Source: a virus. From it: a stretch of 64,000 nt of DNA. The notes under the pieces are model-generated. The model searched no databases and was not told where the DNA came from. It worked only from the letters and a program-made list of their open reading frames with translations. A program made the translations under genes and the position numbers. The number at the start of each line of letters is the position of its first letter. Positions within the stretch are counted from its first letter, which is position 1. The stretch lies in the IMG/VR virus record IMGVR_UViG_3300042359_000853, positions 1-64,000 of that record; one strand, 5' to 3'. Shown in pieces: positions 2,432 through 58,545 of the stretch.

Positions 2432-2698
2432 TTATATGCCTAATATTTGATCGATTTTTTCATCTCTTACCTTTGAGAACTTCTTGAAGTTCTTCATTTC
2501 ACGGGTAATTACAAATAATGAAAGGGGAAATCTTCTACCGCTCTTGTTATATAACACTACCATACCAAATGCTATAGGATCATTTTGGTAGCCAGTATAT
2601 TCTTTGAATTGGACCAAATCACCCCTCTTCAATGGTCCGACCAGCATATCTCTTCCTTGGTAGATGAGAGTTTCACCGGGTATAAATTTATTTTCCAT
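2432..2698 (-). CDS. Small paralogue family member A
   Basis: 88 residues. The N-terminal half (ENKFIPGETLIYQGRDM, then LKRGDLVQFKEY) looks like a compact beta-barrel of SH3/KOW type: gE.L.y.G.....lk.Gd.V.F. It ends VRDEKIDQILGI, the shared C-terminal motif. It is one of four tandem relatives (2432-3486) and overlaps the start of the next by 11 nt, so translation is probably coupled. The function is unknown. Confidence 0.75.
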   Translation of the reverse strand: MENKFIPGETLIYQGRDMLVGPLKRGDLVQFKEYTGYQNDPIAFGMVVLYNKSGRRFPLSLFVITREMKNFKKFSKVRDEKIDQILGI

Positions 2699-2936
2699 GT
2701 TCCAATATATCGTTTATTTTGCTATCTCTTACTTTCCAATCCCTTATGAAATAACAAACATCTTGACTAGGTATATAACTTACATTTTTACTCTGTGTAT
2801 ATCTTGATACATACATACCTCCACTTTGAAAGTATTGGATAAACTCTACACGTTCCCCTTTTTTAAGTGTAGTATAAGGTCCTAGTGTCTCTCCTATGAA
2901 AATGAGGATTTCTCCAGTTATGAACTGATGTGACAT
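2688..2936 (-). CDS. Small paralogue family member B
   Basis: 82 residues, same layout as its neighbours: HQFITGEILIFIGETLG, a lysine/glycine turn LKKGERVEF, and the tail VRDSKINDILEHGK. It begins shortly downstream of a TATATTTG promoter-like element (2951-2958) and its 3' end overlaps the next paralogue. The function is unknown; the barrel-like half suggests binding rather than catalysis. Confidence 0.75.
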   Translation of the reverse strand: MSHQFITGEILIFIGETLGPYTTLKKGERVEFIQYFQSGGMYVSRYTQSKNVSYIPSQDVCYFIRDWKVRDSKINDILEHGK

Positions 2937-2950
2937 ATCTAAATTTTTTA

Positions 2951-2958
2951 CAAATATA
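2951..2958 (-). promoter_or_regulatory. Bacteroidota-type -7 element
   Basis: TATATTTG on the minus strand, matching TAnnTTTG, 14 nt upstream of the ATG at 2936. No clear TTG was seen about 20 nt further up, so the -33 part is weak. Confidence 0.45.
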
Positions 2959-2963
2959 GTTAT

Positions 2964-3218
2964 TTATTTTTGGATTTCTTCAGGGGGTAGTTCTAATATT
3001 TGCGAGATTTTTTCATCTCTTAACTCTTGAATAGTTTTCAAAAAGCAGTCGTCGATAGTGTATAGTTGGTTGGGTTCCCCAATGAGTTCAACCAAAAGCC
3101 TTTTTCCCCGACCGAGGGTATGAAAAAGAACTTCTCTTAATATCACTCGCCGACCTGGTGGAAACCCATTTAATCTTGCTGTTTTGTCTCTCAGTATCAA
3201 TATATCACCTGTTTTCAT
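2964..3218 (-). CDS. Small paralogue family member C
   Basis: 84 residues. It begins directly with the barrel-like part (MKTGDILILRDKTA, PPGRRVILREV) and ends LRDEKISQILELPPEEIQK, with the shared R-D-x-K-I-x-x-I-L motif a few residues from the end. It overlaps the stop of the upstream paralogue by 14 nt. No function is recognised. Confidence 0.75.
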   Translation of the reverse strand: MKTGDILILRDKTARLNGFPPGRRVILREVLFHTLGRGKRLLVELIGEPNQLYTIDDCFLKTIQELRDEKISQILELPPEEIQK

Positions 3219-3486
3219 TATCTAATAGAATATTTATTTTTTTTGATCTCCATTCAGATAAGCTGATAAACAATTCAGGTGTAAAAAACTCATCTAAAAG
3301 TTCAAATCCTTGAGGATGAACTTCCCGTCCTACCTGATACACCATTAAATATTGTTTTGCGCTGTGAGTTTTGAGCCTCATCCACTTTCCGAAAAAAATA
3401 ACCTTATCACCGTATTTAAGGTAGGGTGGCTCGTTGATATCTTGACCGATATAAACGATAACATCTCCTCTAAGGGGGGAGTTCAC
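3205..3486 (-). CDS. Small paralogue family member D
   Basis: 93 residues: NSPLRGDVIVYIGQDI, then LKYGDKVIFFGKW, and a tail WRSKKINILLDNENR that is a divergent form of the shared C-terminal motif. It is the first gene of the four-member tandem array in the direction of transcription. Divergence between copies suggests an old duplication. Confidence 0.75.
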   Translation of the reverse strand: MNSPLRGDVIVYIGQDINEPPYLKYGDKVIFFGKWMRLKTHSAKQYLMVYQVGREVHPQGFELLDEFFTPELFISLSEWRSKKINILLDNENR

Positions 3487-5739: not shown

Positions 5740-7314
5740 ATGAAACAAAAATTATTACTACTTCTCTTTCTACTAGTAAGTAGTCTGTCGGAAGCTCAAA
5801 ATCTAGTAGATACCGTAAGAACGAATATCACTACCAACACAACCTGGAGACGGGATAGAATTTATCTTATCGAAGGCTATCGGTTTGTAAAAGATGGAGC
5901 TACTCTAACAATCGAGCCAGGCACTACTATTAGAGGTGATAAAGCTTCGAAAGGCACACTTATTATTACAAAGACCGGAAAGATCCTAGCCAACGGAAAT
6001 GATACAATGCCTATTGTATTTACCTCGAATCAACCACAAGGAACTAGAACTTATGGTGACTGGGGAGGTATCGTAATCCTGGGAAACGCACCTATCAATG
6101 TTCCTGGTGGCATAGGTATTATCGAAGGTGGTCTTCTTGGGCAAGATGCTACTTATGGGGGAAATAACCAAGATGATAGTTCAGGAGTTTTTAGGTATGT
6201 TCGTATTGAATACCCAGGCATCGCCTATCAGCCAAACTCTGAAATAAACGGATTAACTCTCGGTGGTGTAGGTCGTAAAACACAAATCGATCACATACAA
6301 GTTAGCTATTCTGGTGATGATGCCTTTGAGTGGTTCGGTGGAAATGTAAATTGTAAATACCTAGTAGCACACAGAGGTTGGGATGACGATTTTGATACTG
6401 ATTTTGGATATTCTGGAAAGGTTCAATTCGCCTTATCAATGAGAGACCCAAATATTTCAGACCAATCCCAATCCAATGGACTTGAGTCTGATAACGATGG
6501 AACCGGAACTTTTAATACACCCTTTACTTCACCTCTATTTTCTAATGTAACTATTATTGGACCTAGAGAGGGTGGTAACCCGGCTTCACTCTACCGTAGA
6601 GCTATGCATCTTCGTAGAAATACCAGAACTTCTATCTATAACTCTCTTTTTACTGGTTATACAACTGGTCTTCATATTGATGGACAAGCATCTCAAGCAG
6701 CAGCTACTCTCGATAGCCTTCAGCTAGAACGTGTTATACTCTGTAATATGCTAAATAACTTCGAGCAAACATCTGGTCAAAATACCTGGCAAGGTATGAA
6801 CTCCTATTTTTTAGATTCAACTCGTCAGAACCAAATTATTGATAGCACATTTCGATTGGGTCTTCGCCCGGGTTACGCAAACTTGGGTAGTCCAGACCTC
6901 GTGCCAGATTCAGGAAGTTTATTGTTGAGTGGTGCTAATTTTACAAATCCCCGATTGAGTGATGGATTTTTTGATACCGTGAGTTTCATTGGCGCTTTTG
7001 GCCTAGTAGATTGGACTAGGGGCTGGTCAAATTTCAATCCAGATACCGTTCATACCTCTGTAGAAGTCGTAAATCGAACCGTAACAAGGGTTTATCCGAA
7101 CCCAGTTACACAAGGTCTATTTACTATTCAGTTAGATGAACTTCCACAAGATGTGCGTGTATTCGATATTCGTGGTAGGGAGGTTCAATCTTCATGGAGT
7201 CAGATCTCTGAAGATGCCATCCGAGTATCTCTGGATACAAATAAAGTTGGTCTAATGACCGTTCTTATTCAAGATAAACTTTCCTTAAAGATATCCAGAA
7301 TAGTAGTTCGGTAA
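5740..7314 (+). CDS. T9SS-exported beta-helix protein
   Basis: 524 residues. A Sec signal peptide (about 1-19, ending SEAQ) is followed by a right-handed beta-helix-like body of a family common in Bacteroidota (GATLTIEPGTTIRGDKAS; GDWGGIVILGNAPIN; EWFGGNVNCKYLVAHRGWDD; DTDFGYSGKVQFALSMRDPN). The last about 80 residues are a type A T9SS C-terminal sorting domain: RVYPNPVTQG near residue 450, a beta-sandwich with VRVFDIRGREV, and a basic IVVR end. In the host this would go through Sec and then the T9SS to the cell surface or medium, using host machinery. It stands alone with its own terminator. Function is unknown; adhesion, surface masking or glycan binding are options. Confidence 0.85.
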   Translation: MKQKLLLLLFLLVSSLSEAQNLVDTVRTNITTNTTWRRDRIYLIEGYRFVKDGATLTIEPGTTIRGDKASKGTLIITKTGKILANGNDTMPIVFTSNQPQGTRTYGDWGGIVILGNAPINVPGGIGIIEGGLLGQDATYGGNNQDDSSGVFRYVRIEYPGIAYQPNSEINGLTLGGVGRKTQIDHIQVSYSGDDAFEWFGGNVNCKYLVAHRGWDDDFDTDFGYSGKVQFALSMRDPNISDQSQSNGLESDNDGTGTFNTPFTSPLFSNVTIIGPREGGNPASLYRRAMHLRRNTRTSIYNSLFTGYTTGLHIDGQASQAAATLDSLQLERVILCNMLNNFEQTSGQNTWQGMNSYFLDSTRQNQIIDSTFRLGLRPGYANLGSPDLVPDSGSLLLSGANFTNPRLSDGFFDTVSFIGAFGLVDWTRGWSNFNPDTVHTSVEVVNRTVTRVYPNPVTQGLFTIQLDELPQDVRVFDIRGREVQSSWSQISEDAIRVSLDTNKVGLMTVLIQDKLSLKISRIVVR

Positions 7315-7334: not shown

Positions 7335-7372
7335 AGAGGCGTAGGAAATATTTCCTATGCCTCTTTTTTTTG
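7335..7372 (+). terminator. Intrinsic terminator
   Basis: A 14-bp stem (AGAGGCGTAGGAAA / TTTCCTATGCCTCT, one G-U pair) is followed by a T-run. It lies 21 nt after the stop of the T9SS cargo gene. Confidence 0.85.
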
Positions 7373-10256: not shown

Positions 10257-11540
10257 CTACCAATCCTGAACTAGAGTCATCAGTGATTTACGAGAAGAAA
10301 TTTCCAGATAGGCTTGTGAAAGTTCATCATCAGGATTTTCTAAATATTCATCTATTAGAGAAAAAGAACAACTATCAAAAATCTTACCGATAATATTCCA
10401 AACAGAGGATGATTTCATCTTTTTGACCTGTTCAATACTTTTTGTAAGGCCTTTTTTTCTAAAATAATTGAAACTTCTAGGTGAAGCCGAAGTAATCTTA
10501 GAAATCCACTCGATCCACTCCTTCTGTGCTACTACAAGGTTATAATCCATATCAACCCAACCAGAAAAGGCAAGATATTCAAGATTTTGTAAAAAATCTT
10601 CATTTTTAAACACATCAAAGTGACCTCCGACCGCACGATAAAGATTTAAGACGTGAATGTAAGTTCTAAAGTATCGAATTTGCAACAACTCATCCACCTC
10701 GGTCTTCTCGGTCACCCCGGTGGGAACTACAAACTCTTTTACTTGCTCTAAAGACCAGAGCTTGAAATGTTTTTCACCAAGATAACTGTTACTTTTATGG
10801 AAAAGATAATCTTCAATATCTTCCCTGCGAACAAGTTTCAGAGATTGGAGTAGCTGTGAAGTTTTCGGATTTTTTTGTAGGTAGAGAAAATCTTCTGCTA
10901 GTTTATCAGAAAAAGTTTTTCTATGAAGACCCGGAAGTTCAGTGATGATATAATAAAGAAAATCGAAATCATTCTTGGAAAAAGTAAGATCAAGTTGAAT
11001 AGATTTTTTAAGAGCTCTAATAAGTGTTTTGTCGGGAGAATTGAGGTTTTGTAGAGAAAATTCTCGCTTTTGAGGTAGCTGGTCAAAAAACTTCTCAAAG
11101 GCCGGGGTATAGATAACTTCTCGAGTAGATAGATCGCACCCAATAGCACACAGATCGAGATCGAAGTTCTCAAGAATACTTCTATATCCAGATCCCGGTG
11201 AAACTTCAACAGAAATGTAGTTTACTAGACCTTCTCGTTTACAGGTAAGTATTTTATACCAATTCTCGAAAGAAAGCTTCATAATATAGTTATAACCCGA
11301 TTGAACGATTTCTGGGTTCCAACTAGTAAGTGAAGTTATCCAGGTGTTTTCAGTGGTTACGTTATCAATCGTAAAAACATCTAGATCATTGATAATAGGT
11401 GACGAGGTTCGTAATGTTCGGTGAATGATCCAGTTCGATAGAGCGCCACCTGCTAAAAAACCCGATGTAGGTAGTTTTTTAGAGATATCGGAATCTAGAA
11501 ACTCAAGAACCAAGGAGTTAATCTTTTCTTTTGTAGTCAT
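10257..11540 (-). CDS. Nucleotidyltransferase-fold protein
   Basis: 427 residues from the ATG at 11540 (MTTKEKIN), chosen over an upstream ATG because a TATCTTTG element sits 20 nt before it. The N-terminal part carries a Pol-beta-type nucleotidyltransferase signature: FLAGGALSNWI, then NDLDVFTID, giving G-G and D-x-D metal ligands. The rest is helical and without a recognised domain. Related folds occur in poly(A)/CCA polymerases and in phage proteins of unknown target. The substrate cannot be told from sequence. Confidence 0.6.
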   Translation of the reverse strand: MTTKEKINSLVLEFLDSDISKKLPTSGFLAGGALSNWIIHRTLRTSSPIINDLDVFTIDNVTTENTWITSLTSWNPEIVQSGYNYIMKLSFENWYKILTCKREGLVNYISVEVSPGSGYRSILENFDLDLCAIGCDLSTREVIYTPAFEKFFDQLPQKREFSLQNLNSPDKTLIRALKKSIQLDLTFSKNDFDFLYYIITELPGLHRKTFSDKLAEDFLYLQKNPKTSQLLQSLKLVRREDIEDYLFHKSNSYLGEKHFKLWSLEQVKEFVVPTGVTEKTEVDELLQIRYFRTYIHVLNLYRAVGGHFDVFKNEDFLQNLEYLAFSGWVDMDYNLVVAQKEWIEWISKITSASPRSFNYFRKKGLTKSIEQVKKMKSSSVWNIIGKIFDSCSFSLIDEYLENPDDELSQAYLEISSRKSLMTLVQDW

Positions 11541-11560
11541 ACAGATTTTTATTTCAACTA

Positions 11561-11568
11561 CAAAGATA
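11561..11568 (-). promoter_or_regulatory. Bacteroidota-type -7 element
   Basis: TATCTTTG on the minus strand, 20 nt upstream of the ATG at 11540. The -33 TTG is not evident. Confidence 0.5.
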
Positions 11569-11683
11569 GAAAAAAAAATCAGTAGTTGCACATCTTTATG
11601 AAAAAAAATCTTTTATGTCATTTTGTCATATAAGTTTCTTTGGCACAATATATGTATGATAAAAAGAAAAAAAATATAAATCT

Positions 11684-12022
11684 ATGTTCTTACACTCAAG
11701 TAACCTAACCAGATCATTAGTAGATCACTACCACAAAACAAAGTTTTCTCACAAGTTCGTTCAAAAAGATGATGGGACTATTTCACTTCGTATGGAAGTT
11801 CCTGGCTTCACAAAGGATACTCTCTGGGTTCAACTCATGGATGGCGTTCTTAATGTATCAGGTAAATATAAAAGTGATGGGGTAACCTATAAGGTAAACA
11901 CTACTCTGGAAGTTCCAAAAAATGCCGATCAAGAAACAGCCACCGCTCAGGTTGAAAACGGTATCTTAACAGTCACTATGAACACTAAAACCACCAAGTG
12001 CTATAACTTACTCAAAAAATAA
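11684..12022 (+). CDS. Hsp20/alpha-crystallin small heat-shock protein
   Basis: 112 residues, almost entirely an alpha-crystallin domain: SLRMEVPGFTKDTLWVQL, VLNVSGKY, and the conserved VENGILTVTM near the end. The N-terminal arm is short (about 30 residues) and the usual I-x-I tail motif is missing, so oligomers may be small. It acts as an ATP-independent holdase. It sits 28 nt before dnaK on the same strand, suggesting a shared transcript and hand-over of clients to DnaK. Hsp20 genes are known in T4-like cyanophages. Confidence 0.85.
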   Translation: MFLHSSNLTRSLVDHYHKTKFSHKFVQKDDGTISLRMEVPGFTKDTLWVQLMDGVLNVSGKYKSDGVTYKVNTTLEVPKNADQETATAQVENGILTVTMNTKTTKCYNLLKK

Positions 12023-12050: not shown

Positions 12051-13928
12051 ATGAAAAAAGACGTAATCATCGGTATTGACCTAGGAACAACTAACTCAGC
12101 GGTAGCTATTGTTGAGGCGGGAGATTCAGTGATCATTCCAAACTCTGAAGGCCGCAGAACAACACCATCGGTCGTTGCCTTCACCGATAAAGACCGAAGA
12201 ATCGGAGATCCTGCTAAAAGACAAGCAGTGACCAATCCCCAAAAAACCATCTACTCTATTAAGAGATTTATTGGTAAGAGCTGGGCAGCATCGAAAGACG
12301 AAGCTGGCAAAGTTCCCTACACGGTGAAATCAAGCTCAAACTCTACACCCGTCGTATCGATTGATGATAGAGATTATACCCCTCAAGAAATCTCAGCGAT
12401 GATCCTTCAGAAAATGAAAAAAACCGCCGAAGATTATCTAGGTTACGAAGTTACACGAGCTGTTATTACCGTTCCTGCTTACTTCGGAGATGCCGAAAGA
12501 GGCGCAACGATGGAAGCCGGTCAAATCGCTGGGCTTAAAGTCGAGAGGATTATCAACGAACCTACAGCAGCTGCCCTGGCCTATGGTTTAGATAAAAAAG
12601 GTCAAGACTCAAAAATCTTGGTTTTCGACTGCGGAGGTGGAACCCACGACGTATCAGTTCTTGAAATTGGTGATGGTGTATTCGAGGTAAAATCAACCGA
12701 TGGTGATACCCATCTAGGTGGTGATGACTTTGATAATGCGATCATTGCCTGGATGACCGGTGAGTTCAAAAGTGACACTGGTATCGATCTAACGAAAGAT
12801 CCAATGGCATTACAACGACTGAAAGACGCAGCTGAAAAAGCAAAGATCGAACTTTCTTCTTCACTTTCAACCGAGGTCAATCTTCCCTATATTACGGTGA
12901 AGGATAACGTTCCTCAACACTTTGTGAAATCTCTTACCCGTGCTAAGTTCGATCAACTTACCAAATCACTCGTTGATAGAGCAGTGGCCTGTGCGAAAAG
13001 TGCTCTAAAATCTGCTGGTCTTAAGCCAAGTGAGATTGATGAAGTAGTTTTAGTAGGTGGTTCTACTCGCATTCCAGCTATTCAAGATGCTGTCGAGAGT
13101 TTTATTGGTAAAAAAGCCAATAAATCTGTAAATCCAGATGAAGTCGTAGCAATGGGAGCAGCTATTCAAGGTGCTGTTCTTACCGGTGATGTTAATGATG
13201 TTCTTCTACTAGACGTTATTCCACTCTCGTTCGGTATTGAAACCATGGGTGGTGTAATGACCAAACTTATCGAGGCCAACACAACTATTCCAGTAAGAAA
13301 GCAGCAAACTTTCTCAACAGCTGCTGATAATCAAAACTCAGTTGAAATCCACGTTCTTCAAGGTGAAAGGCCGATGGCATCAGATAACCGTTCGATAGGC
13401 AGGTTCCATCTTGATGGTATTATGCCAGCTCCGAGGGGTGTTCCACAAATCGAGGTTAGTATTGATATCGACGCTAATGGTATCCTAAGTGTTAAAGCTC
13501 AAGATAAAGCTACTGGTAAAGAAAACAAAATTCGTATCGAAGGTGGTTCTTCTCTAACACCAGAGGAAATCCAACGTATGAAAGACGAGGCTATTCAGAA
13601 CGAGGCTGAGGATAAACGTAAGATGGAAACTGCCGAGCTTGTCAATAAGTGTGATACTCAAGTATTCACTACTAAAAAATCACTCGAAGAGTGGAAGGAC
13701 AAGTTTACACCCGAGCAGCTAGAAGAGCTTCAAAAACTGGTCGGCCAGCTCGAAGAGGCTCTCTCTCAACGAGACGAGACTAGGATGAAAGAAGCTTCGT
13801 CTTCTCTTGAGTCGACTTTCTCCAAAATTTCTACCGAGATTTATTCTAAAATCAGTAGTGAAGAAGGTTCTAGTTCAAGTGGTGTAGAAGATGTAGAATA
13901 TACAACGGTTGAAGATCAAGACAAGTAA
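12051..13928 (+). CDS. dnaK: Chaperone DnaK (Hsp70)
   Basis: 625 residues, full length. The ATPase domain carries [17 protein letters not shown] at the start, [31 protein letters not shown] and the phosphate-2 loop. That loop reads [12 protein letters not shown] (C194, H199) where bacterial DnaK normally has L and F. The substrate-binding domain begins about residue 390 ([14 protein letters not shown]) and the end is acidic ([14 protein letters not shown]), as in Bacteroidota DnaK. ATP-driven folding would need DnaJ (40563) and GrpE (37141), both present here. It has more G/C-rich codons than its neighbours, which may reflect host origin. Confidence 0.97.
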
Positions 13929-28351: not shown

Positions 28352-29274
28352 AATTTATTTTGTTTAAGAAATTCGAGTGCTATTTGAGATTCGTTTTGAT
28401 TTTTGAATCCATGATAGAATAATACTTCACTTGAGTTTCGACAATACGTATATCCATCTTCTTCAAGGTAGGTATCTAAAATATTCGGATCCATTTCAAC
28501 TTTTTTAAGTATTTCACTTTTATGAGTATTTACAAAAATTGTTTCATAATTTTTTTCAACACTTCTTCTCCAAAGAATGATATTTATTGCTGTTTCCTCG
28601 TGAAAAGGTAGATATTCTTTACCTCTTCTTCGTATCCAGGGATTTTCTATGAGTGATTTCCATTCTAAAATAAAATCTTCACACTTTTCACCAAAACTAA
28701 TTACACAGGTTCCAACATATCTCATCGATCTTTTTTTAACACCGAAAAGACACATAAGTGCTGCTTCGTTGTAGATAATTGTCCCAGGTGTTCCGGTAAC
28801 CCTACCATCAATATCGACTTCAACAGCTAGTCTTTCTTGACCATCAGATCCAATGTATTTCAATGTAGGATTCCATATTTTAGCTTTGGAGTAATGTGGT
28901 CCAAAAATTATTGGAAAAGAATGGGATATTGTCGTGAGGAGAGGATAGTCCTCATCATTTTCAAAATAGTCGATATTAAATCTTTTACCGACAAGAATAT
29001 CACAATCCATGAACAAAAAATCACCACCAAAATGATTTAATGCGTGAAATAAAATAGCTGGTTTATAAAAATAAAAATCAGTGCCGTATTCTTTTACTGG
29101 TTCAAAATATTGACATATAAGATTTGGATAGTCAAGTTGTGATTCAAATCCAATTGTATAATATATTATAGGTATAGTATAATTGGTTCTTATTATTATA
29201 GACTCAACGAGATTTTTAGCTTGAAATTCATAATTTTTATCGGAAAGAATAATAATTTTTCTTGAATTTTTCAT
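28348..29274 (-). CDS. GT-A type glycosyltransferase
   Basis: 308 residues. KIIILSDKNYEFQAKNLVES starts a Rossmann-like half, and LFMDCDILVGKRF contains the D-C-D (D-x-D) metal/nucleotide-sugar motif. The second half has conserved-looking FGEKCEDFILEWKSL and HEETAINIILWRR. It is the last of three coupled glycosyltransferase genes (34636 to 28348). The sugar is unknown. Confidence 0.7.
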   Translation of the reverse strand: MKNSRKIIILSDKNYEFQAKNLVESIIIRTNYTIPIIYYTIGFESQLDYPNLICQYFEPVKEYGTDFYFYKPAILFHALNHFGGDFLFMDCDILVGKRFNIDYFENDEDYPLLTTISHSFPIIFGPHYSKAKIWNPTLKYIGSDGQERLAVEVDIDGRVTGTPGTIIYNEAALMCLFGVKKRSMRYVGTCVISFGEKCEDFILEWKSLIENPWIRRRGKEYLPFHEETAINIILWRRSVEKNYETIFVNTHKSEILKKVEMDPNILDTYLEEDGYTYCRNSSEVLFYHGFKNQNESQIALEFLKQNKL

Positions 29275-31589
29275 ATCAATCCATTTTGTTTTAGTTTTTC
29301 AAAAATAAATTCTGGTTCAATTGTTCTAGTACATTCAAACCATTTTGTTGAACCTTTATGTTCCGGACACCAAGTCCAGTCACCTGGATCGAATTTCCAG
29401 TCAGTTGTTTTAGTGAAACAAGAATTACATACTTGTTGGTTTTGTATTCTTATAATGTCTTGTGTAAATTCGTTGTCAGCAGAGGTAACTCCTGATATCA
29501 TAACTACTTCTTTCCCAAGTGCGTGAGCAACCCAAGAAAGACCAGAAGAAACTCCAATAAAAAATGCAGAATGTTGTATAATATTCACTACTTCATCGAA
29601 ACTTAGTCCTGTTTTACGAACCGAGGAATGAGGTAAAGAATTCCACCAACCTTCAATTCCAAAAACTTCGTGAAGATCCACCGCAACTGGTATTAAATCG
29701 ATTTTTCTCAACATTTTTGATAAAATTTCCCATCCGTTGGGATAGTTCCAATATTTACACTGGGAGGTAGATTGAACCCCTAGGCAAACATATTTGTCCC
29801 TAATAGGTCTTGGTAATTTAGATCTTTTGATGAGTGGTCTGAGTTCTTTATATTCAAGTTCAAGTTGATCTGAAAAACCTTTCATGACCGGTCTATCAAA
29901 TTTGTAATCAAGATAAATTATATTAGTAAAGTTTTCATCAAAATGTTCTTTTTTCTCTAATAAATTCAGGTTTGGAAAATCCGAAGGATCGAAAATATCT
30001 ACACCTTTCACGTAAAGATCACACACTATATTTTTCATCAGTGCGAATTCTTGAGCATACCTTACTGAAACTATTTTATCACCAAGAGCATCACTATTAG
30101 AGACAATAATAGTTTTTTGAGAAATTTTTTCTTTTTGATTAAAATAATCTAGAAGTTGTCGTTCGTTCAAGGAGTAATAAAACCCGTTTTCGTCGGCTTG
30201 AGAATCAATTTGAACACCATCAATGTAGTAATTTTTTCTAGTTTTTATGGTAAGATAACATCTAGTTTTTTCAACAAAAGATTTTACAGTATCTGGTTCT
30301 AGATCGAAACTCTCGATAACAAGCAAAATACGCTTATTTTCAAGAGAAAGTTCTTCTTTATGTAAAATTTTGGATCCCTCTTTTACCTCAACAACCCATT
30401 CTATAAATTCTCCATCTCTAAATGCTGAAGACCATATGTTTGTTGATTTTTTCGTAAGACTATGGTATATGACTCTTCCTGTTTTCTTATCACTAAAAAC
30501 AACAGTCCCATCAAAAGAAAAACCTACTTTACAAAAAGCTCTTCTAGATGAAAAATTTATAATGATTCCCTTGGTGTCGGGAGTAGACCTAGATGTCTTT
30601 TTAATTTTGTTGTAATTATATAAAAGTTGATCTCTTTCACTCACTTGGTAGAATTTTTTATAATTTTGGATCATTCTACCAACTACCAAATCCCAAGAAA
30701 AACTTAGACGATTATCAATAATTTGGTTGGTCAAGCTATCGTATTTCTTGAAAGCATTCCCAATCGCCTTCTCTAAAGAATCTATCTCTGGGGAGCAATT
30801 TATTAGTCCAGGTAAAGATTCATTGCAAACCCCAACAACTGGCATACCCACAGATAAAGCTTCTAGAATTGTTAAATTTGGATGACCAGCTTCTAAATTA
30901 GAAGGATGCAAAAATAACTGGTAATTTTTCATTCTATCAATAGATTCTTTGTAATCTAAATCATATAGAATAGTTAAATTTTTGTAATCTGGTTTCCAGA
31001 AATCAAAGAAAGTTTGATTACTGGATGGGCACATGATATGAATTTCGAAGCCGAACTTTTTAGCACATTCGATACCTAACAAAAAACCCTTTCTATCTAT
31101 GGTTCTGTCGCCACCCATACCATTATTTGCCATCATCAATAATTTTGGGTTATCTATACGAACTTTCTCGGATCTATCAATTAAGGGATAGTCTTCTAAA
31201 TTTACACCGTGTGGGAGATATACTATTTGTTCGAGTTCGTCGAAATATTTTATCAAATGTTTTGAGTGCACAAATGTAAGCTTCGAATTTTTAATAGCCC
31301 TGTAATTTTCTTTATAAACCGCTGAATCTTTTCCGAAATACTCTACGTGATGATCATGTAGGGAAAAAACATAAGGGATCCCCTTTTGATATAAAATATT
31401 TGCCAAATTGGCCATGTGAACATGTATAATTTGACCATGCCTATATTGTATATCATCAAGATAAAGAATTTCTACCTCATACCCGAGTTTCTCTAGTGAG
31501 AGTTTATATTCCCAGATTATTTTTTCAACCGCACCCCATCCATTTGGTGGTATGGGTATATTACCAGGTGTTACTTGAATTATCTTCAT
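29271..31589 (-). CDS. Two-glycosyltransferase fusion (GT4-like + GT9-like)
   Basis: 772 residues. The N-terminal about 310 residues are a GT-B enzyme of GT4 type: QVTPGNIPIPPNGWGAVEKI, HVHMANLANILY, LPHGVNLEDYP, LHPSNLEAGHPNLTILEALS. A strand-rich linker domain (about 340-440) follows. The C-terminal about 310 residues look like a heptosyltransferase (GT9) fold: IIVSNSDALGDKIVSVRYAQ, KYVCLGVQSTSQCKYW, FIGVSSGLSWVAHALGKEV. The fusion of two transferases suggests sequential addition of two sugars. It is 8 nt from the giant gene upstream. Confidence 0.8.
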   Translation of the reverse strand: MKIIQVTPGNIPIPPNGWGAVEKIIWEYKLSLEKLGYEVEILYLDDIQYRHGQIIHVHMANLANILYQKGIPYVFSLHDHHVEYFGKDSAVYKENYRAIKNSKLTFVHSKHLIKYFDELEQIVYLPHGVNLEDYPLIDRSEKVRIDNPKLLMMANNGMGGDRTIDRKGFLLGIECAKKFGFEIHIMCPSSNQTFFDFWKPDYKNLTILYDLDYKESIDRMKNYQLFLHPSNLEAGHPNLTILEALSVGMPVVGVCNESLPGLINCSPEIDSLEKAIGNAFKKYDSLTNQIIDNRLSFSWDLVVGRMIQNYKKFYQVSERDQLLYNYNKIKKTSRSTPDTKGIIINFSSRRAFCKVGFSFDGTVVFSDKKTGRVIYHSLTKKSTNIWSSAFRDGEFIEWVVEVKEGSKILHKEELSLENKRILLVIESFDLEPDTVKSFVEKTRCYLTIKTRKNYYIDGVQIDSQADENGFYYSLNERQLLDYFNQKEKISQKTIIVSNSDALGDKIVSVRYAQEFALMKNIVCDLYVKGVDIFDPSDFPNLNLLEKKEHFDENFTNIIYLDYKFDRPVMKGFSDQLELEYKELRPLIKRSKLPRPIRDKYVCLGVQSTSQCKYWNYPNGWEILSKMLRKIDLIPVAVDLHEVFGIEGWWNSLPHSSVRKTGLSFDEVVNIIQHSAFFIGVSSGLSWVAHALGKEVVMISGVTSADNEFTQDIIRIQNQQVCNSCFTKTTDWKFDPGDWTWCPEHKGSTKWFECTRTIEPEFIFEKLKQNGLI

Positions 31590-31597
31590 AAAGGAAA

Positions 31598-34500
31598 TTA
31601 TTTATTCGGAATCTGAACAGTATCTCGTAAATCTTTGGATTTTCCGCTAAAAACTACTCTGTTTTGATATACAACTTCCCACGACAATAGAGAACCATCT
31701 ACTATATTCCAGGACCAAGAGGATTCATAATTTGCTAATTCTTGTTCTAAAATTTCTTCTCGACCATCATCATATACTAATATAAATTTTATTCCAATAT
31801 TATTGTTCGTAAGATTTCTAGAGAAGAACATAAAGTTATCTGAATTTTCAACTCTGTAAACACCCGTGAAGAAATCCTTGAAATTATTAGAAAAATTAGA
31901 GATAGAGGCCTCTGTATTCCAAATAGTATCTGTTAAAATACTATCCATAATTCTACCATTATGTATTTTCAATTCTTTCGGGTTTGTTTTTTCAAGAAGT
32001 CTTCTAAATAACACTTCTACAGTTACAAAATCTCTACTATGCCACTTTTTTTGTATAAAATCTAAGTAATCACTCTCTTTACTAAATTTTGGTATTGTAT
32101 CTAAAAAATAATCAATATTCCAGAACTGAAGATGAAAAGATATGTTATTTTCTTCAGTTTCTGTGGATTCATCGTAGTCGTTAAAAAATAACACCGCTTT
32201 TTGGTCATTACTCTCCATTTCAAGTGCGATATCATAGATTTTATCTAGTGAACGATTACCATATAGATCGTCACATTCAATTCTCACCACATTTGTGTAT
32301 CCGAGTGATTTTGCTAAGCTCATTGCGTTATGAAAATTTACCATTACAGATAAACCGTGTTTTTGAACACCTTTTGTAAAATTTTTCAGAGTGAAAATCC
32401 ATTTACTTTCAAGAGAGACATAATCATTTATAATTATTTCTTTAACATTTGAATATTCTTCACGAAATAATTGATTTCTACGATCATAGTAAAAAAAATC
32501 AACCATTTGTTGTATTTCTCTATCAATTGTTGTATTAGATACTAACATCAAATCAAATCCTCTAATTTTGAACCTTTCGATCTGCTGAATTAGTCTTTCT
32601 TTCACTCTTCTACTTGATACATAACTATCTAAAATTACTAGAGTTTTTTCTAGACCTTTTATTTGGATATCAGTTTTTGTTAATTCTTTATCCCCATGAA
32701 TATTTTTTGATATGAAAACCACACCTTTTTCCTGTGAAGTGCCGTTTATCAGAGTTTTACAATCTTCTTCAAAAATTTGATACTGGTATCCAAGCTTAAT
32801 GATTCTCAAAATTATTTGATTTCTAAGTATATCTTCAAAGTTATCGTGGAACTCTAATATAATATTCTCTATCTTGAGTAAATTCTGATCAGAAAGACCC
32901 TCGAAGGCTTTATATTCACTACCTTCGATGTCCATTTTCATGAGAGAGACTTTCTCAATACCAGAATCAGCAAAAAAGCTATCTAAGTCTATTGATGAAA
33001 TTTCGAAATGTTTATCGGTGATATTGATGGCAGAGCTAATAATTGAATTGTTTTGATCTTCATAGATTTTTATCTTTTCTTTTTTATCCCAAACAGCGTT
33101 TTTTACAAGACTAACTCGTGAATCCTCACCGTGTAAATTATTAAATACCTTGACTGCTTTATCAGAAACCTCAAAAGCTATTACTTTTTTTGCTCCTTTA
33201 TCTTTTGCTAATTCCGTGAATAGTCCAATAGAACTACCAACATCTAAAATCAGATCAAGTGAGTTTATACTAGAAAGAAATTGATCATAAATTCTATCTG
33301 TAAAAAATTGTTCGAAATTTACAAAAATAGGTTCATAAGTATCGATTCTAAACTTTTTTTTCTGAACATTAATCATCTTTATCTGATATGATTGAGAATA
33401 TAGTAAATTTCCACCATGATCGTAGAAATCAATAAGAAATCCTGAGAAATTTGGATTTTCTGAAAAATCATAATAGGATTTTGGTAGTGGTATTGCCCAA
33501 TAATTATTTTTATTTTCGAATTTTGCATCAAATGAAAAAATAGGAATTTGAGTATCCATATCTCTAATACAAACCATCATATCGAAAGGAAGGTCATGTA
33601 AATAATTTAGAGTCAATTTATTATCTGAACTATCAAAGTCAATATCAAATAATTTTTGGTTGAAAAATTCTGGTTTGATTAGTGTGTAGTTGTTTAATAA
33701 GTCTAGCATAGAGTATAATATTTTTGAATTTTCTTCTAAATCTTGGACCATCCATTTCAATTTCGAAGATTCTGTGTAGGTGTTCATATAGACGGGTATA
33801 TTTCTGAGAAAAAGTGGTATTTCCCAAGCGATGGCTTCTTTTATAGCAAGTGGGTTCGTTTCAGTATCACCATATCTACCTTCTGATGGGAAAATTACGG
33901 CATCCATACAAGAGTAAAAAGTATGAACATCGCTTCTTTCCCTCCAAATTTGACAATTTGGTGGTTTATTATCAATCAAATCTTGCCAATGACCCCTATA
34001 ATTATCAGGAAGAGCTCCAACAAAATGAAACTGAACATCAGGCATTATTTTTGCTAGGGAGAAGGTAAATCGTTGATTTTTTCTATTAGAGAAAAGTCCT
34101 ACTTGAAGAACATGCCTTTTTGTAGGATCGAGTCCTAATGTTTTCATACCTAATTCCCTATTTCTCTCACCGGTCGTAATTTCATGCTCGATAATTTCGA
34201 TGGGAATCCCAAGAGGTAGGAAATTTTTGACTTGCCACAGACTCACAACAAGCATCTTATCTGGTAGATACTTTTTCTCACGATGATCGATCGACGAGTC
34301 ATGAAGTGTTTCAAATATTTTCCAAGTTCTTGATGGTGAATATATTTTATCTAGTAATGGATGTGGCAGAAAATGGTCTGAAGTTTCTTCGAAATGAACC
34401 ACATCAGGTGAAATTTTCTGTAATAAGGTAAAAAGTTTTTTATAATTTTGATCGAGTGAAACCAATCTCGAACCAATCATCCCCTCTATTTTTTCTCGAA

Positions 34501-34636
34501 TCGTCGTATATTGTTTTTCATATACTAATTCGAAAACCCATACTTCGTTGTCTGTGTGTAATAGTTCTACTTTTTTTCTTAAATACTCTGGCATTCCACC
34601 AGTAGAAAGATGTGGTGTAATATAAACTATTTTCAT
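31598..34636 (-). CDS. Giant GT-B / FkbM methyltransferase / GT-A protein
   Basis: 1012 residues from the ATG at 34636 (MKIVYITPHLSTGG), preferred to the ATG 18 nt upstream because GT-B enzymes begin this way. Domains in order: GT-B glycosyltransferase (1 to about 330; HVLQVGLFSNRKNQRF, FPSEGRYGDTETNPLAIKEA); strand-rich linker; FkbM-type methyltransferase (about 440-660; LDVGSSIGLFTELA with D465, MKMDIEGSEYKAFEGL); a GT-A-like region (about 675-905; VRIECDDLYGNRSLDKIYDI); and a C-terminal beta domain. It would build and O-methylate a glycan in one polypeptide. Confidence 0.8.
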   Translation of the reverse strand: MKIVYITPHLSTGGMPEYLRKKVELLHTDNEVWVFELVYEKQYTTIREKIEGMIGSRLVSLDQNYKKLFTLLQKISPDVVHFEETSDHFLPHPLLDKIYSPSRTWKIFETLHDSSIDHREKKYLPDKMLVVSLWQVKNFLPLGIPIEIIEHEITTGERNRELGMKTLGLDPTKRHVLQVGLFSNRKNQRFTFSLAKIMPDVQFHFVGALPDNYRGHWQDLIDNKPPNCQIWRERSDVHTFYSCMDAVIFPSEGRYGDTETNPLAIKEAIAWEIPLFLRNIPVYMNTYTESSKLKWMVQDLEENSKILYSMLDLLNNYTLIKPEFFNQKLFDIDFDSSDNKLTLNYLHDLPFDMMVCIRDMDTQIPIFSFDAKFENKNNYWAIPLPKSYYDFSENPNFSGFLIDFYDHGGNLLYSQSYQIKMINVQKKKFRIDTYEPIFVNFEQFFTDRIYDQFLSSINSLDLILDVGSSIGLFTELAKDKGAKKVIAFEVSDKAVKVFNNLHGEDSRVSLVKNAVWDKKEKIKIYEDQNNSIISSAINITDKHFEISSIDLDSFFADSGIEKVSLMKMDIEGSEYKAFEGLSDQNLLKIENIILEFHDNFEDILRNQIILRIIKLGYQYQIFEEDCKTLINGTSQEKGVVFISKNIHGDKELTKTDIQIKGLEKTLVILDSYVSSRRVKERLIQQIERFKIRGFDLMLVSNTTIDREIQQMVDFFYYDRRNQLFREEYSNVKEIIINDYVSLESKWIFTLKNFTKGVQKHGLSVMVNFHNAMSLAKSLGYTNVVRIECDDLYGNRSLDKIYDIALEMESNDQKAVLFFNDYDESTETEENNISFHLQFWNIDYFLDTIPKFSKESDYLDFIQKKWHSRDFVTVEVLFRRLLEKTNPKELKIHNGRIMDSILTDTIWNTEASISNFSNNFKDFFTGVYRVENSDNFMFFSRNLTNNNIGIKFILVYDDGREEILEQELANYESSWSWNIVDGSLLSWEVVYQNRVVFSGKSKDLRDTVQIPNK

Positions 34637-34692
34637 GTTATTTTTATATCCCATATCCTGTAATAGTTTTTGTAAACAAATAACAAATTAAA

Positions 34693-56158: not shown

Positions 56159-56974
56159 ATGAAAAAAAAGGGTGTTTTTTGTATTTGGGGAGGAAGTTTC
56201 AGAAATTCATATAATAGCTATGAAAGTTTCACTAAAAATAATATTCTTGAAAAGCAATTTGTGGCATCACAATCTCAGATCAATTTTCTAAAATCACTTT
56301 TATCGGAAATTGATATATGTCTAATCATAATCACCTACAAAAATGAGTTTTCTGATTTTTTATTTAGCTGGTACAAAGATTTTAATCCACTAATAATCTT
56401 GATTGAAAAACCCATAGGATTTATTAAATTATCGAAAAAAGTTCCTCAATTAGTATCAAGATACGGTAGTGACTTTTATTTTTTTATAAGAATAGATTTG
56501 GTTTTGAAATCCAAATTGTTAGACATAATTCATTTTCCGGAGAAAAAAATCGTTTGTCCATTTATATGTTATATAGGGGGACATGAGCACATAGTTTCAC
56601 CATTTCCTTCACATCTACCCCAGTATAAAAAAAATATTATTCCTAGTGAAAAAACACGTTCAAGACCGAGTGACTTGATCATGTATGTTTGTTCTAAATT
56701 CAAAAGTGAACTAGCAAGCTCAAAAATATGGCTCAATCATGATTTTACTCTGCACATAAACTATGATATCTATAAACAAATTGATTATTACATCGACACC
56801 TTTCACGACAGCAATACATCAGGAGATAGAAATCCACTTTTCTACATTTGTAACAGAGATGAAGAATTGATGTGGAAATCAGAATTTTTTTGCCATACAG
56901 GTGATGGCCAACCAGAAATGAATTATGAAAAAAATTTCAACAAAATCTTCGTAAAAGATTACCCACTAATCTAG
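56159..56974 (+). CDS. Possible glycosyltransferase-like protein
   Basis: 271 residues. KKKGVFCIWGGSFRNSYNSY at the start and DFYFFIRIDLVLKSKL in the middle resemble the layout of the 20561 protein (R-x-D). The C-terminus is aromatic with many His/Asp. It converges with the nucleotidylyltransferase gene with a 4-nt overlap. Assignment is tentative. Confidence 0.4.
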   Translation: MKKKGVFCIWGGSFRNSYNSYESFTKNNILEKQFVASQSQINFLKSLLSEIDICLIIITYKNEFSDFLFSWYKDFNPLIILIEKPIGFIKLSKKVPQLVSRYGSDFYFFIRIDLVLKSKLLDIIHFPEKKIVCPFICYIGGHEHIVSPFPSHLPQYKKNIIPSEKTRSRPSDLIMYVCSKFKSELASSKIWLNHDFTLHINYDIYKQIDYYIDTFHDSNTSGDRNPLFYICNRDEELMWKSEFFCHTGDGQPEMNYEKNFNKIFVKDYPLI

Positions 56975-58545
56975 ATTATATTACAAAAATACTCACTCCA
57001 ATATTGATAAGTAAGTAGATCATCTGGTGTTCCCCAGCAAATATAATTTTTGGATTCAAAAACTTTTACACAAAGACCATTTTCAATATTTCTGTTAAGA
57101 ACATCATCGACATAATATTCTCCATTAGTTGTTATTCGAGAATCCATATTCTGATATAATCCCTCCAGAAAATATTTAGCTTTTCTAAAATACATAGTTC
57201 CGATGATTGCGTGTGTTGTTAGTGGATTTTCATAAATGAATTTTTTACAGGATACATATTGAATATTTCCATCATCATCCACATCTAACCAAGCATACAT
57301 ATCTGGATTATTTACACTTGTTGCGTTACCTCTAAAAGACCAAACGATAATATCGACATTCGGGTCCTCAACAAGTCTTTGATATTCTTGACTGTCATAC
57401 ACAACACCATTATCACAAGCAGAGATGAGAATTGGTTTTTCAGGATCGATATCGAATTCATCTAAACCAATTTTACAAGTTATTGCTTGACCCTGTGTGA
57501 TATAATCAATTACCGAAAATTGAGACTCTGGGTAATTCTGTGATATTATTTGATCTATTTCAAAATATTCTAGATGTTCTTTCTGACAGATAAATATTTT
57601 GTTGGATGTTCTAGGTAAGCACTCAACTGCGGATACAATCATTGGTTTTCCATCAACCGGTATCAAAGGCTTTGGTATATCATATCCGATTTTTGAAAAT
57701 CTAGAACCCCTCCCGGCCATAGGTAGAATAAGTGTAGTATCATCCGTATGTGTATAGTGTTGTGTGTATTTTTTGAGATTTTTGAAATAATTAGACCAAC
57801 CAAGATATATTTCCAAATCGTAGGGTGTTCCCCATTGAAGCATTTTTTCAATCGGATATACACCAACTCTGAGATTGTCTTCTATTAGTAAATTATAAAC
57901 TAAACTAACATAATATTCACCACCTAGATGAATATCTCTCTCAATAAGTTTTTCGAAATACTTCTTTAGGGTCTTTCCCGATCTAAAATAGTATGTGCCA
58001 TTAGAAGCCCATTCATTCATTTTGTTATCTGTGAAAGGTTCTTTTTCTTTTATCTTTTCAACAAGACCGGTTTCCAAATTTTCTTTACAAAAAGCGTAGT
58101 TATCACTACCAAGCATATGTGGGTGAAATCCAGTATAACAAGCTATAGAACCATCAAGGTTTCTTCTTTTACAATCTTCTAAGAAAGCGTAAAAATCCCA
58201 TCGAGTTCCATAATCACAATAGCTTACAATAATCTCTTTGTTATCATCGATATGATCTTTAATTTGGAAAACAGCATCGACTGGTCCCTTTCTATACAAA
58301 TCTTCAACCGAAAATATTTGTGCGGAGGGTCTAATTTTCAATAAAATTTCTCTCATGTTAGTTTGTTCCAAATGTTCTTTTCTACAAATGAAAGTGATAT
58401 CTTCAACTCCCGGAAACAAATCAACTACAAATTTAATAATTGGGTATCCATCAACTTCAATCAAAGGTTTTGGAGATGTATAACCTGCTGAAGAGAATCT
58501 CTTACCAAGTCCAGACATTGGTATTATTAATTTAATATTTTCCAT
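56971..58545 (-). CDS. Tandem sugar-phosphate nucleotidylyltransferase
   Basis: 524 residues made of two complete NTP-transferase domains. The first begins IPMSGLGKRFSSAGYTSPKP and ends about 250; the second begins LPMAGRGSRFSKIGYDIPKP near residue 275. Both keep the G-x-G-x-R-F nucleotide loop, the K-P-L, and a downstream D-x-G (YCDYGT / ACDNGV). Each would make an NDP-sugar from a sugar phosphate. The duplication may give two specificities or a built-in dimer. It feeds the glycosyltransferases that follow. Confidence 0.85.
   Translation of the reverse strand: MENIKLIIPMSGLGKRFSSAGYTSPKPLIEVDGYPIIKFVVDLFPGVEDITFICRKEHLEQTNMREILLKIRPSAQIFSVEDLYRKGPVDAVFQIKDHIDDNKEIIVSYCDYGTRWDFYAFLEDCKRRNLDGSIACYTGFHPHMLGSDNYAFCKENLETGLVEKIKEKEPFTDNKMNEWASNGTYYFRSGKTLKKYFEKLIERDIHLGGEYYVSLVYNLLIEDNLRVGVYPIEKMLQWGTPYDLEIYLGWSNYFKNLKKYTQHYTHTDDTTLILPMAGRGSRFSKIGYDIPKPLIPVDGKPMIVSAVECLPRTSNKIFICQKEHLEYFEIDQIISQNYPESQFSVIDYITQGQAITCKIGLDEFDIDPEKPILISACDNGVVYDSQEYQRLVEDPNVDIIVWSFRGNATSVNNPDMYAWLDVDDDGNIQYVSCKKFIYENPLTTHAIIGTMYFRKAKYFLEGLYQNMDSRITTNGEYYVDDVLNRNIENGLCVKVFESKNYICWGTPDDLLTYQYWSEYFCNII

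Follow-up and report, generated by a model that had tools for sequence, protein, structure and literature searches.

Most of what is known about phage-made changes to the host cell surface comes from Enterobacteria, with superinfection exclusion, receptor blocking and LPS conversion as examples. Among phages of Bacteroidetes, the 76-kb Cryophage carries three variable genes for cargo of the type IX secretion system (T9SS; Bellas et al. 2020, PMC7468147), and 'Secretion system C-terminal sorting domain' is the existing name of a phage protein in UniProt/BFVD. The idea of phage-encoded T9SS cargo is therefore not new, and the routing of a phage protein through this system, which a sequence-only reading of the present locus had called unusual, has precedent both in that database entry and in Cryophage. 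In the open-access literature searched, neither a beta-helix cargo nor a receptor-partner cargo turned up, and the same holds for exchange between sorting tail and lipoprotein signal and for T9SS cargo of jumbo phages.

Phage origin of the record

The window analysed here covers the initial 64 kb of a 227,583-base virus record from IMG/VR (IMGVR_UViG_3300042359_000853), and the gene of interest occupies positions 5740-7314. The same record encodes a terminase large subunit, a major head protein, a head maturation protease, a contractile tail sheath and a phage topoisomerase. The structural hallmark genes lie at about 188-213 kb of the record, with the gene at 5740-7314 outside this region; its flanks match the hallmark region in tetranucleotide signature (r 0.90-0.96), and its GC3 of 0.277 falls within the phage range (0.256 +/- 0.039). 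Hallmark genes, tetranucleotide signature and GC3 together rule out a host chromosome, a concern raised by the sequence-only reading, as well as a chimeric contig. The carrier is best explained as a jumbo myophage whose Bacteroidota host has a T9SS. The T9SS of that host is presumed; hints to the host's identity are that the named relatives of the protein body come from Bacteroidota, Ignavibacteriota or Chlorobiota, and that a second cargo protein of the record has its homologue in a Flavobacterium phage.

Anatomy of the putatively exported protein

The gene runs for 524 codons without interruption. Its product begins with MKQKLLLLLFLLVSSLSEA followed by QNL, by inspection a Sec-type signal peptide with Q at the expected +1 position, and its C-terminus carries the motifs RVYPNPV...VFDIRG. 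The predicted structure, made with 30 sequences in the alignment, has a mean pLDDT of 89.5 and comprises the signal peptide helix, the body, the low-confidence linker and a separate beta domain at residues 450-523 (Table 1). The hairpin behind the gene is suggestive because of its placement rather than through the scan count, since three terminator-like hairpins were found in the region against 2.0 expected and the scan alone is not significant. With this hairpin on its 3' side and the nearest upstream gene on the opposite strand, the layout is suggestive of a single-gene cargo unit.

Table 1. Positions of the cargo gene, its parts and related loci (window positions unless another record is named).
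Feature	Position	Strand	Basis
CDS, 524 aa: N-terminal signal peptide, beta-helix, C-terminal T9SS type A sorting domain	5740..7314	+	ORF, profile, model
Sec (SPI) signal peptide, residues 1-19, expected cleavage before Q20	5740..5796	+	Predicted from sequence; predicted helix 4-15
Right-handed beta-helix body, residues ~22-434	5803..7041	+	pLDDT mostly >90; bacterial relatives 42-58% identical; alignment A1
Linker, residues 435-450, low confidence 440-447	7042..7089	+	Predicted model
T9SS type A C-terminal sorting domain, residues 451-524	7090..7311	+	PF18962; fold match 8glk_D
Intrinsic terminator-like hairpin, 13 pairs then seven T	7335..7364	+	Consensus scan; 20 nt past the stop of the CDS
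Second T9SS cargo (cohesin domain, dockerin-like stretch)	Record about 204299-206200 (L032:299-2200)	-	Profile search
TBDT gene next to beta-helix surface protein gene	L130:2743-6583 (LR745206.1); L016:8336-12473

The sorting tail is recognized by PF18962 (Por_Secre_tail), which aligns over residues 451-523 along the full model length of 1-75 at 25.7 bits in hmmscan (E=1.4e-5) and scores 29.7 bits when the record is searched in six frames, which exceeds the cut-off of 27 bits. The NCBIfam model TIGR04183 reaches 19.9 bits, under its cut-off of 23, so that the profile evidence for the 524-aa protein is borderline, and by profile its tail is among the weakest in its phage clade. This borderline tail is strengthened by three further observations. 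The C-terminal domain (CTD) is separate in the model, with predicted strands at pLDDT values of about 80-89 that agree with the beta-sandwich of about seven strands expected at the very C-terminus of type A cargo; it aligns in Foldseek to 8glk_D, a solved CTD chain from a T9SS NucA-substrate complex, over 75 residues (TM 0.72, 27% identity), a likeness found by fold only, as a single-sequence search of the CTD against the PDB gave no match; and all 11 tails of the T9SS-form phage orthologues exceed the PF18962 cut-off, at 29.2-41.6 bits. The product is confirmed to combine a signal peptide with a right-handed beta-helix and, at its C-terminus, a T9SS type A sorting domain, and ORF, profile and model bear out the earlier description of a phage-encoded protein of a Bacteroidota family with a signal peptide, a sorting tail and no frameshift. 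Of the two outcomes that the sequence-only reading had named as refuting it, a failed match to the sorting profile and an origin in host chromosome, neither came about, the score of TIGR04183 being the one reservation.

Bacterial relatives and TonB-dependent receptors

The beta-helix body belongs to no Pfam or PHROG family and has no sequence relative in the PDB. Its whole-chain fold matches, tailspike depolymerases and a pectate lyase among them, are weak (TM 0.11-0.34), and on these grounds a known enzyme family was rejected for it. Many relatives exist in Bacteroidota, Ignavibacteriota and Chlorobiota, where they likewise occur either as lipoproteins or with T9SS tails. Among the 80 nearest bacterial relatives, 67 loci offered 1.5 kb or more of upstream sequence for testing. 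In 51 of these, a gene resembling those of TonB-dependent receptors (TBDTs), as called by BLAST against four TBDTs, is the neighbour, and in 50 it lies directly upstream on the same strand. The gaps between the two genes measure 1-370 nt, most of them <250 nt, and Pfam Plug and/or barrel domains were present in all eight receptors scanned. The pair of beta-helix and TBDT also recurs in two further phage lineages, namely L016-L018 and the 634-kb phage LR745206.

In the 227-kb record of the window phage, no TonB Plug domain was found and the gene at 5740-7314 is not adjacent to a TBDT gene, so that a host-encoded partner receptor must be assumed; the protein is placed in the family of TBDT partners by homology of the body. 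The beta-helix family would consist of extracellular partners of TonB-dependent receptors, and for the window protein the receptor would be one that the host supplies.

Phage relatives and selection

A scan of IMG/VR returned 23 relatives of the protein, and in five records with a close relative a terminase lies on the same contig. A tree of the bodies unites the window protein with 14 phage relatives in a single clade (SH-aLRT 97) nested among the bacterial sequences, and L016-L018 fall outside this 15-member group; the tree was built by a quick method, and wider sampling of bacteria might split the clade. For the pair L005 and L014, the body gave a dN of 0.074 and a dS of 0.83 (dN/dS ~0.09), and the CTD, which is looser than the body, a dN of 0.115 and a dS of 0.45 (dN/dS ~0.25); pairs that include the window sequence were left out because their dS is saturated. 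Judged by these ratios, the beta-helix body is under strong purifying selection. All columns that are invariant in the family, which include acidic clusters, are kept in the phage proteins, among them the GDD, DDDFDTD and ESDN stretches insofar as these are invariant (alignment A1), and this conservation suggests that an ancestral activity is retained beyond that of a mere blocking surface. For the neighbouring gene at 10257-11591 of the window, a search of IMG/VR gave no relative, and the existing near relatives (L120-L129) are fragments without the beta-helix gene.

Exchange of export signals at one phage locus

A signal peptide and a YPNP tail are present in 11 of the 14 clade relatives. 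L011, L013 and L015 (63% identical over the body) carry a lipoprotein signal (for example ...LTFTSC/KKD) and end with the body, with no tail. Both export forms occupy the same phage locus, which is recognized by a common upstream gene for a membrane protein of 112-115 residues that is 61-94% identical to the L013 copy across both groups. L015 has one extra ORF between the two genes, and the marker gene was absent from the search result in L010; this comparison covers the L002-L015 group rather than the window's own locus. Between the T9SS form and the lipoprotein form, both ends of the protein have changed jointly while the body and the locus have stayed constant. The simplest reading is therefore that selection would act on placement of the body at the outer membrane or surface, with the T9SS tail functional as an export signal; a lipoprotein signal is by itself no proof of an outward-facing side.

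Second cargo and other genes of the record

The second T9SS cargo of the record, 633 residues long, combines a cohesin domain with a signal peptide and a T9SS tail that scores 43.5 bits. Its gene is one of a series whose products have signal peptides or lipoprotein signals and which is located between the endolysin and terminase genes. The conserved exported run around it (L031:14919-19878) comprises a lipoprotein, a barrel-like protein and a secreted PA14 or C-type lectin protein. The module also occurs in records G001 and G014, both of which have a relative of the gene at 5740-7314, and in diverged form in immuto, a cultured Flavobacterium phage whose gp015 is the homologue of the second cargo. 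The cohesin domain (36.7 bits) and the T9SS tail (34.6 bits) of gp015 both score above cut-off, so T9SS tails do occur in a phage whose host is known to be a Flavobacterium.

The lectin domain of the module varies among phages, being PA14 in the window's record and G014 and C-type lectin in G001 and immuto, with conserved ends, and the lectin protein has by eye a dockerin-like stretch. Display of phage-made lectins through cohesin and dockerin may be considered a possibility. For the module's lipoprotein (L031:19186-19878, L133:13731-14444), a CsgG-like identity suggested by its general layout by eye was not confirmed, there being no Pfam or PDB-profile match and a model of low confidence (pLDDT 43). 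In the relative L122, a transposase-like ORF recognized by eye (L122:12234-13163) lies inside the second module.

Several other genes of the record were noted. A phage-encoded tmRNA (L030:8754-9103, record about 172754-173103, minus strand; Rfam RF00023, 65.3 bits) has the long predicted tag GNTNEVGSVEDLVFALRNNILKANRLAVA, and the record also encodes SmpB (L025:12894-13343) and ClpS (L032:10660-10944). Phage-encoded chaperones comprise DnaK, Hsp20 and DnaJ-like proteins (window 12051-13928, 11684-12022; L026:18443-19168), and a glutamine synthetase is encoded at L028:18508-19554. A TnpB-like gene with OrfB_IS605 and Cas12f1-like TNB domains is preceded by a resolvase-like gene (L030:13445-15180). 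Genes resembling glycosyltransferases, nucleotidyltransferases and FkbM methyltransferases are many (window 29271-34654, 56971-58545; L025:499-8474), one of them being similar to autotransporter heptosyltransferases (190.7 bits, cut-off 200). On the minus strand of the window, at 2432-3486, four short tandem ORFs resemble diverged copies of each other.

Proposed role and alternative explanations

On comparative sequence evidence, it is moderately probable that the jumbo-phage beta-helix is a T9SS-exported surface partner of a host TBDT, with its ancestral role probably retained. A host gene for an extracellular beta-helix protein would have been captured and carried by the phage as a single-gene unit with its terminator-like hairpin. 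The product would cross the inner membrane via Sec and then fold in the periplasm, and the T9SS of the host would move it across the outer membrane by means of its C-terminal sorting domain. On the surface of the infected cell, the beta-helix would partner a host-encoded TBDT, a nutrient receptor, and so change its binding or uptake in the course of infection. The sequences themselves show the domain layout, the phage setting, selection on the body, the swap of T9SS tail and lipoprotein signal in place among relatives, and the adjacency of bacterial relatives to receptor genes; we infer that the protein is in fact exported, that it binds a receptor and that the phage benefits.

The main rival to a receptor partner is receptor masking, in which the exported beta-helix would cap a TBDT used for phage entry, leading to superinfection exclusion and sparing progeny from re-adsorption to debris. 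Masking had also been put forward by the sequence-only reading, and it has become more specific because the bacterial relatives pair with TBDTs. A precedent is Cor of phages phi80 and N15, which inactivates the TBDT FhuA (PMC11436027). Docking has led to the proposal that tail spikes of Crassvirales use TBDTs of Bacteroides as receptors (PMC10569736), and superinfection exclusion was suggested for the T9SS cargo of Cryophage (Bellas et al., PMC7468147). However, the phage proteins keep every family-invariant residue, and two other phage lineages bring a TBDT of their own, which fits uptake better than blocking. These two observations favour a retained partner or uptake function. Masking is considered unlikely. 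The further suggestion that the protein could help particle spread drew no support from anything found.

Activity as a surface enzyme is a less probable alternative still: a beta-helix polysaccharide lyase, epimerase or hydrolase placed on the host cell might alter the capsule or neighbouring glycans, as the right-handed fold, the weak resemblance to tailspike depolymerases and pectate lyase, the phage pectate-lyase-like proteins among the matches and the invariant acidic clusters would allow. Yet no Pfam enzyme family matches, the whole-chain TM values are those given above, no catalytic site was found, and the pairing with receptors would be left without explanation. It is very improbable that the protein is a virion or tail component that is not exported and whose T9SS-like tail is a coincidence of fold. 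Although tailspikes often have beta-helices, the clade retains an N-terminal signal peptide that some members swap for a lipoprotein signal, the CTD matches by profile as well as by fold, and the gene lies away from the structural region. Just as little credence is given to a recent capture of a host gene with no function in the phage, which would suit the variable carriage between phages but is at odds with the dN/dS of ~0.09, the single old phage clade, the phage-like GC3 and the conserved locus in the L002-L015 group.

Extended to both cargo proteins, the receptor-partner reading leads to a more general proposal, which is doubtful at present: Bacteroidota phages may refit the infected-cell surface with receptor partners and lectins of their own, using T9SS and lipoprotein routes interchangeably, with the beta-helix controlling a TBDT and the cohesin cargo possibly holding phage-made lectins.

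Comparison with known systems

New elements of the present system are the phage clade of the beta-helix, the alternation of T9SS tail and lipoprotein signal at one phage locus, and the position of the bacterial relatives downstream of TBDT genes. Phages appear here to use a secretion system specific to Bacteroidota for altering the surface of infected cells, and one protein at one phage locus with two unrelated export signals constitutes a natural experiment. The pairing with TBDTs turns an obscure surface protein into a testable hypothesis on which host receptor the phage manipulates, and the family itself, conserved and unnamed and found next to many receptors of Bacteroidota, may merit study as a receptor partner.

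Cryophage cargo and the window protein are alike in being encoded by Bacteroidota phages with a terminal T9SS type A domain and a proposed dependence on the host T9SS; as described in the accessible part of the report, however, the Cryophage proteins are an endoglucanase, a GH39 protein and a PA14 protein, with no beta-helix, and neither receptor pairing nor lipoprotein-signal exchange is reported there (PMC7468147). In the cultured Flavobacterium phage vB_FspM_immuto (NC_055915), gp015 likewise has a T9SS tail above cut-off, but its cargo body is unrelated to the beta-helix and homologous to the second cargo. Cor of phi80 and N15 is also a phage-made protein acting on a TBDT; it offers a functional comparison for masking only, as no sequence relation is claimed and Cor is not T9SS-exported (PMC11436027). 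With T9SS type A cargo of Bacteroidota (PF18962/TIGR04183), the window protein shares the plan of a Sec signal peptide, a cargo body and a C-terminal beta-sandwich of ~75 residues with the YPNP motif, whereas it is encoded by a phage and depends on the machinery of another genome. The TBDT-adjacent beta-helix proteins of bacteria have the same body, 42-58% identical, and the same choice of T9SS tail or lipoprotein signal, but their genes lie downstream of a TBDT gene, while the window copy stands alone.
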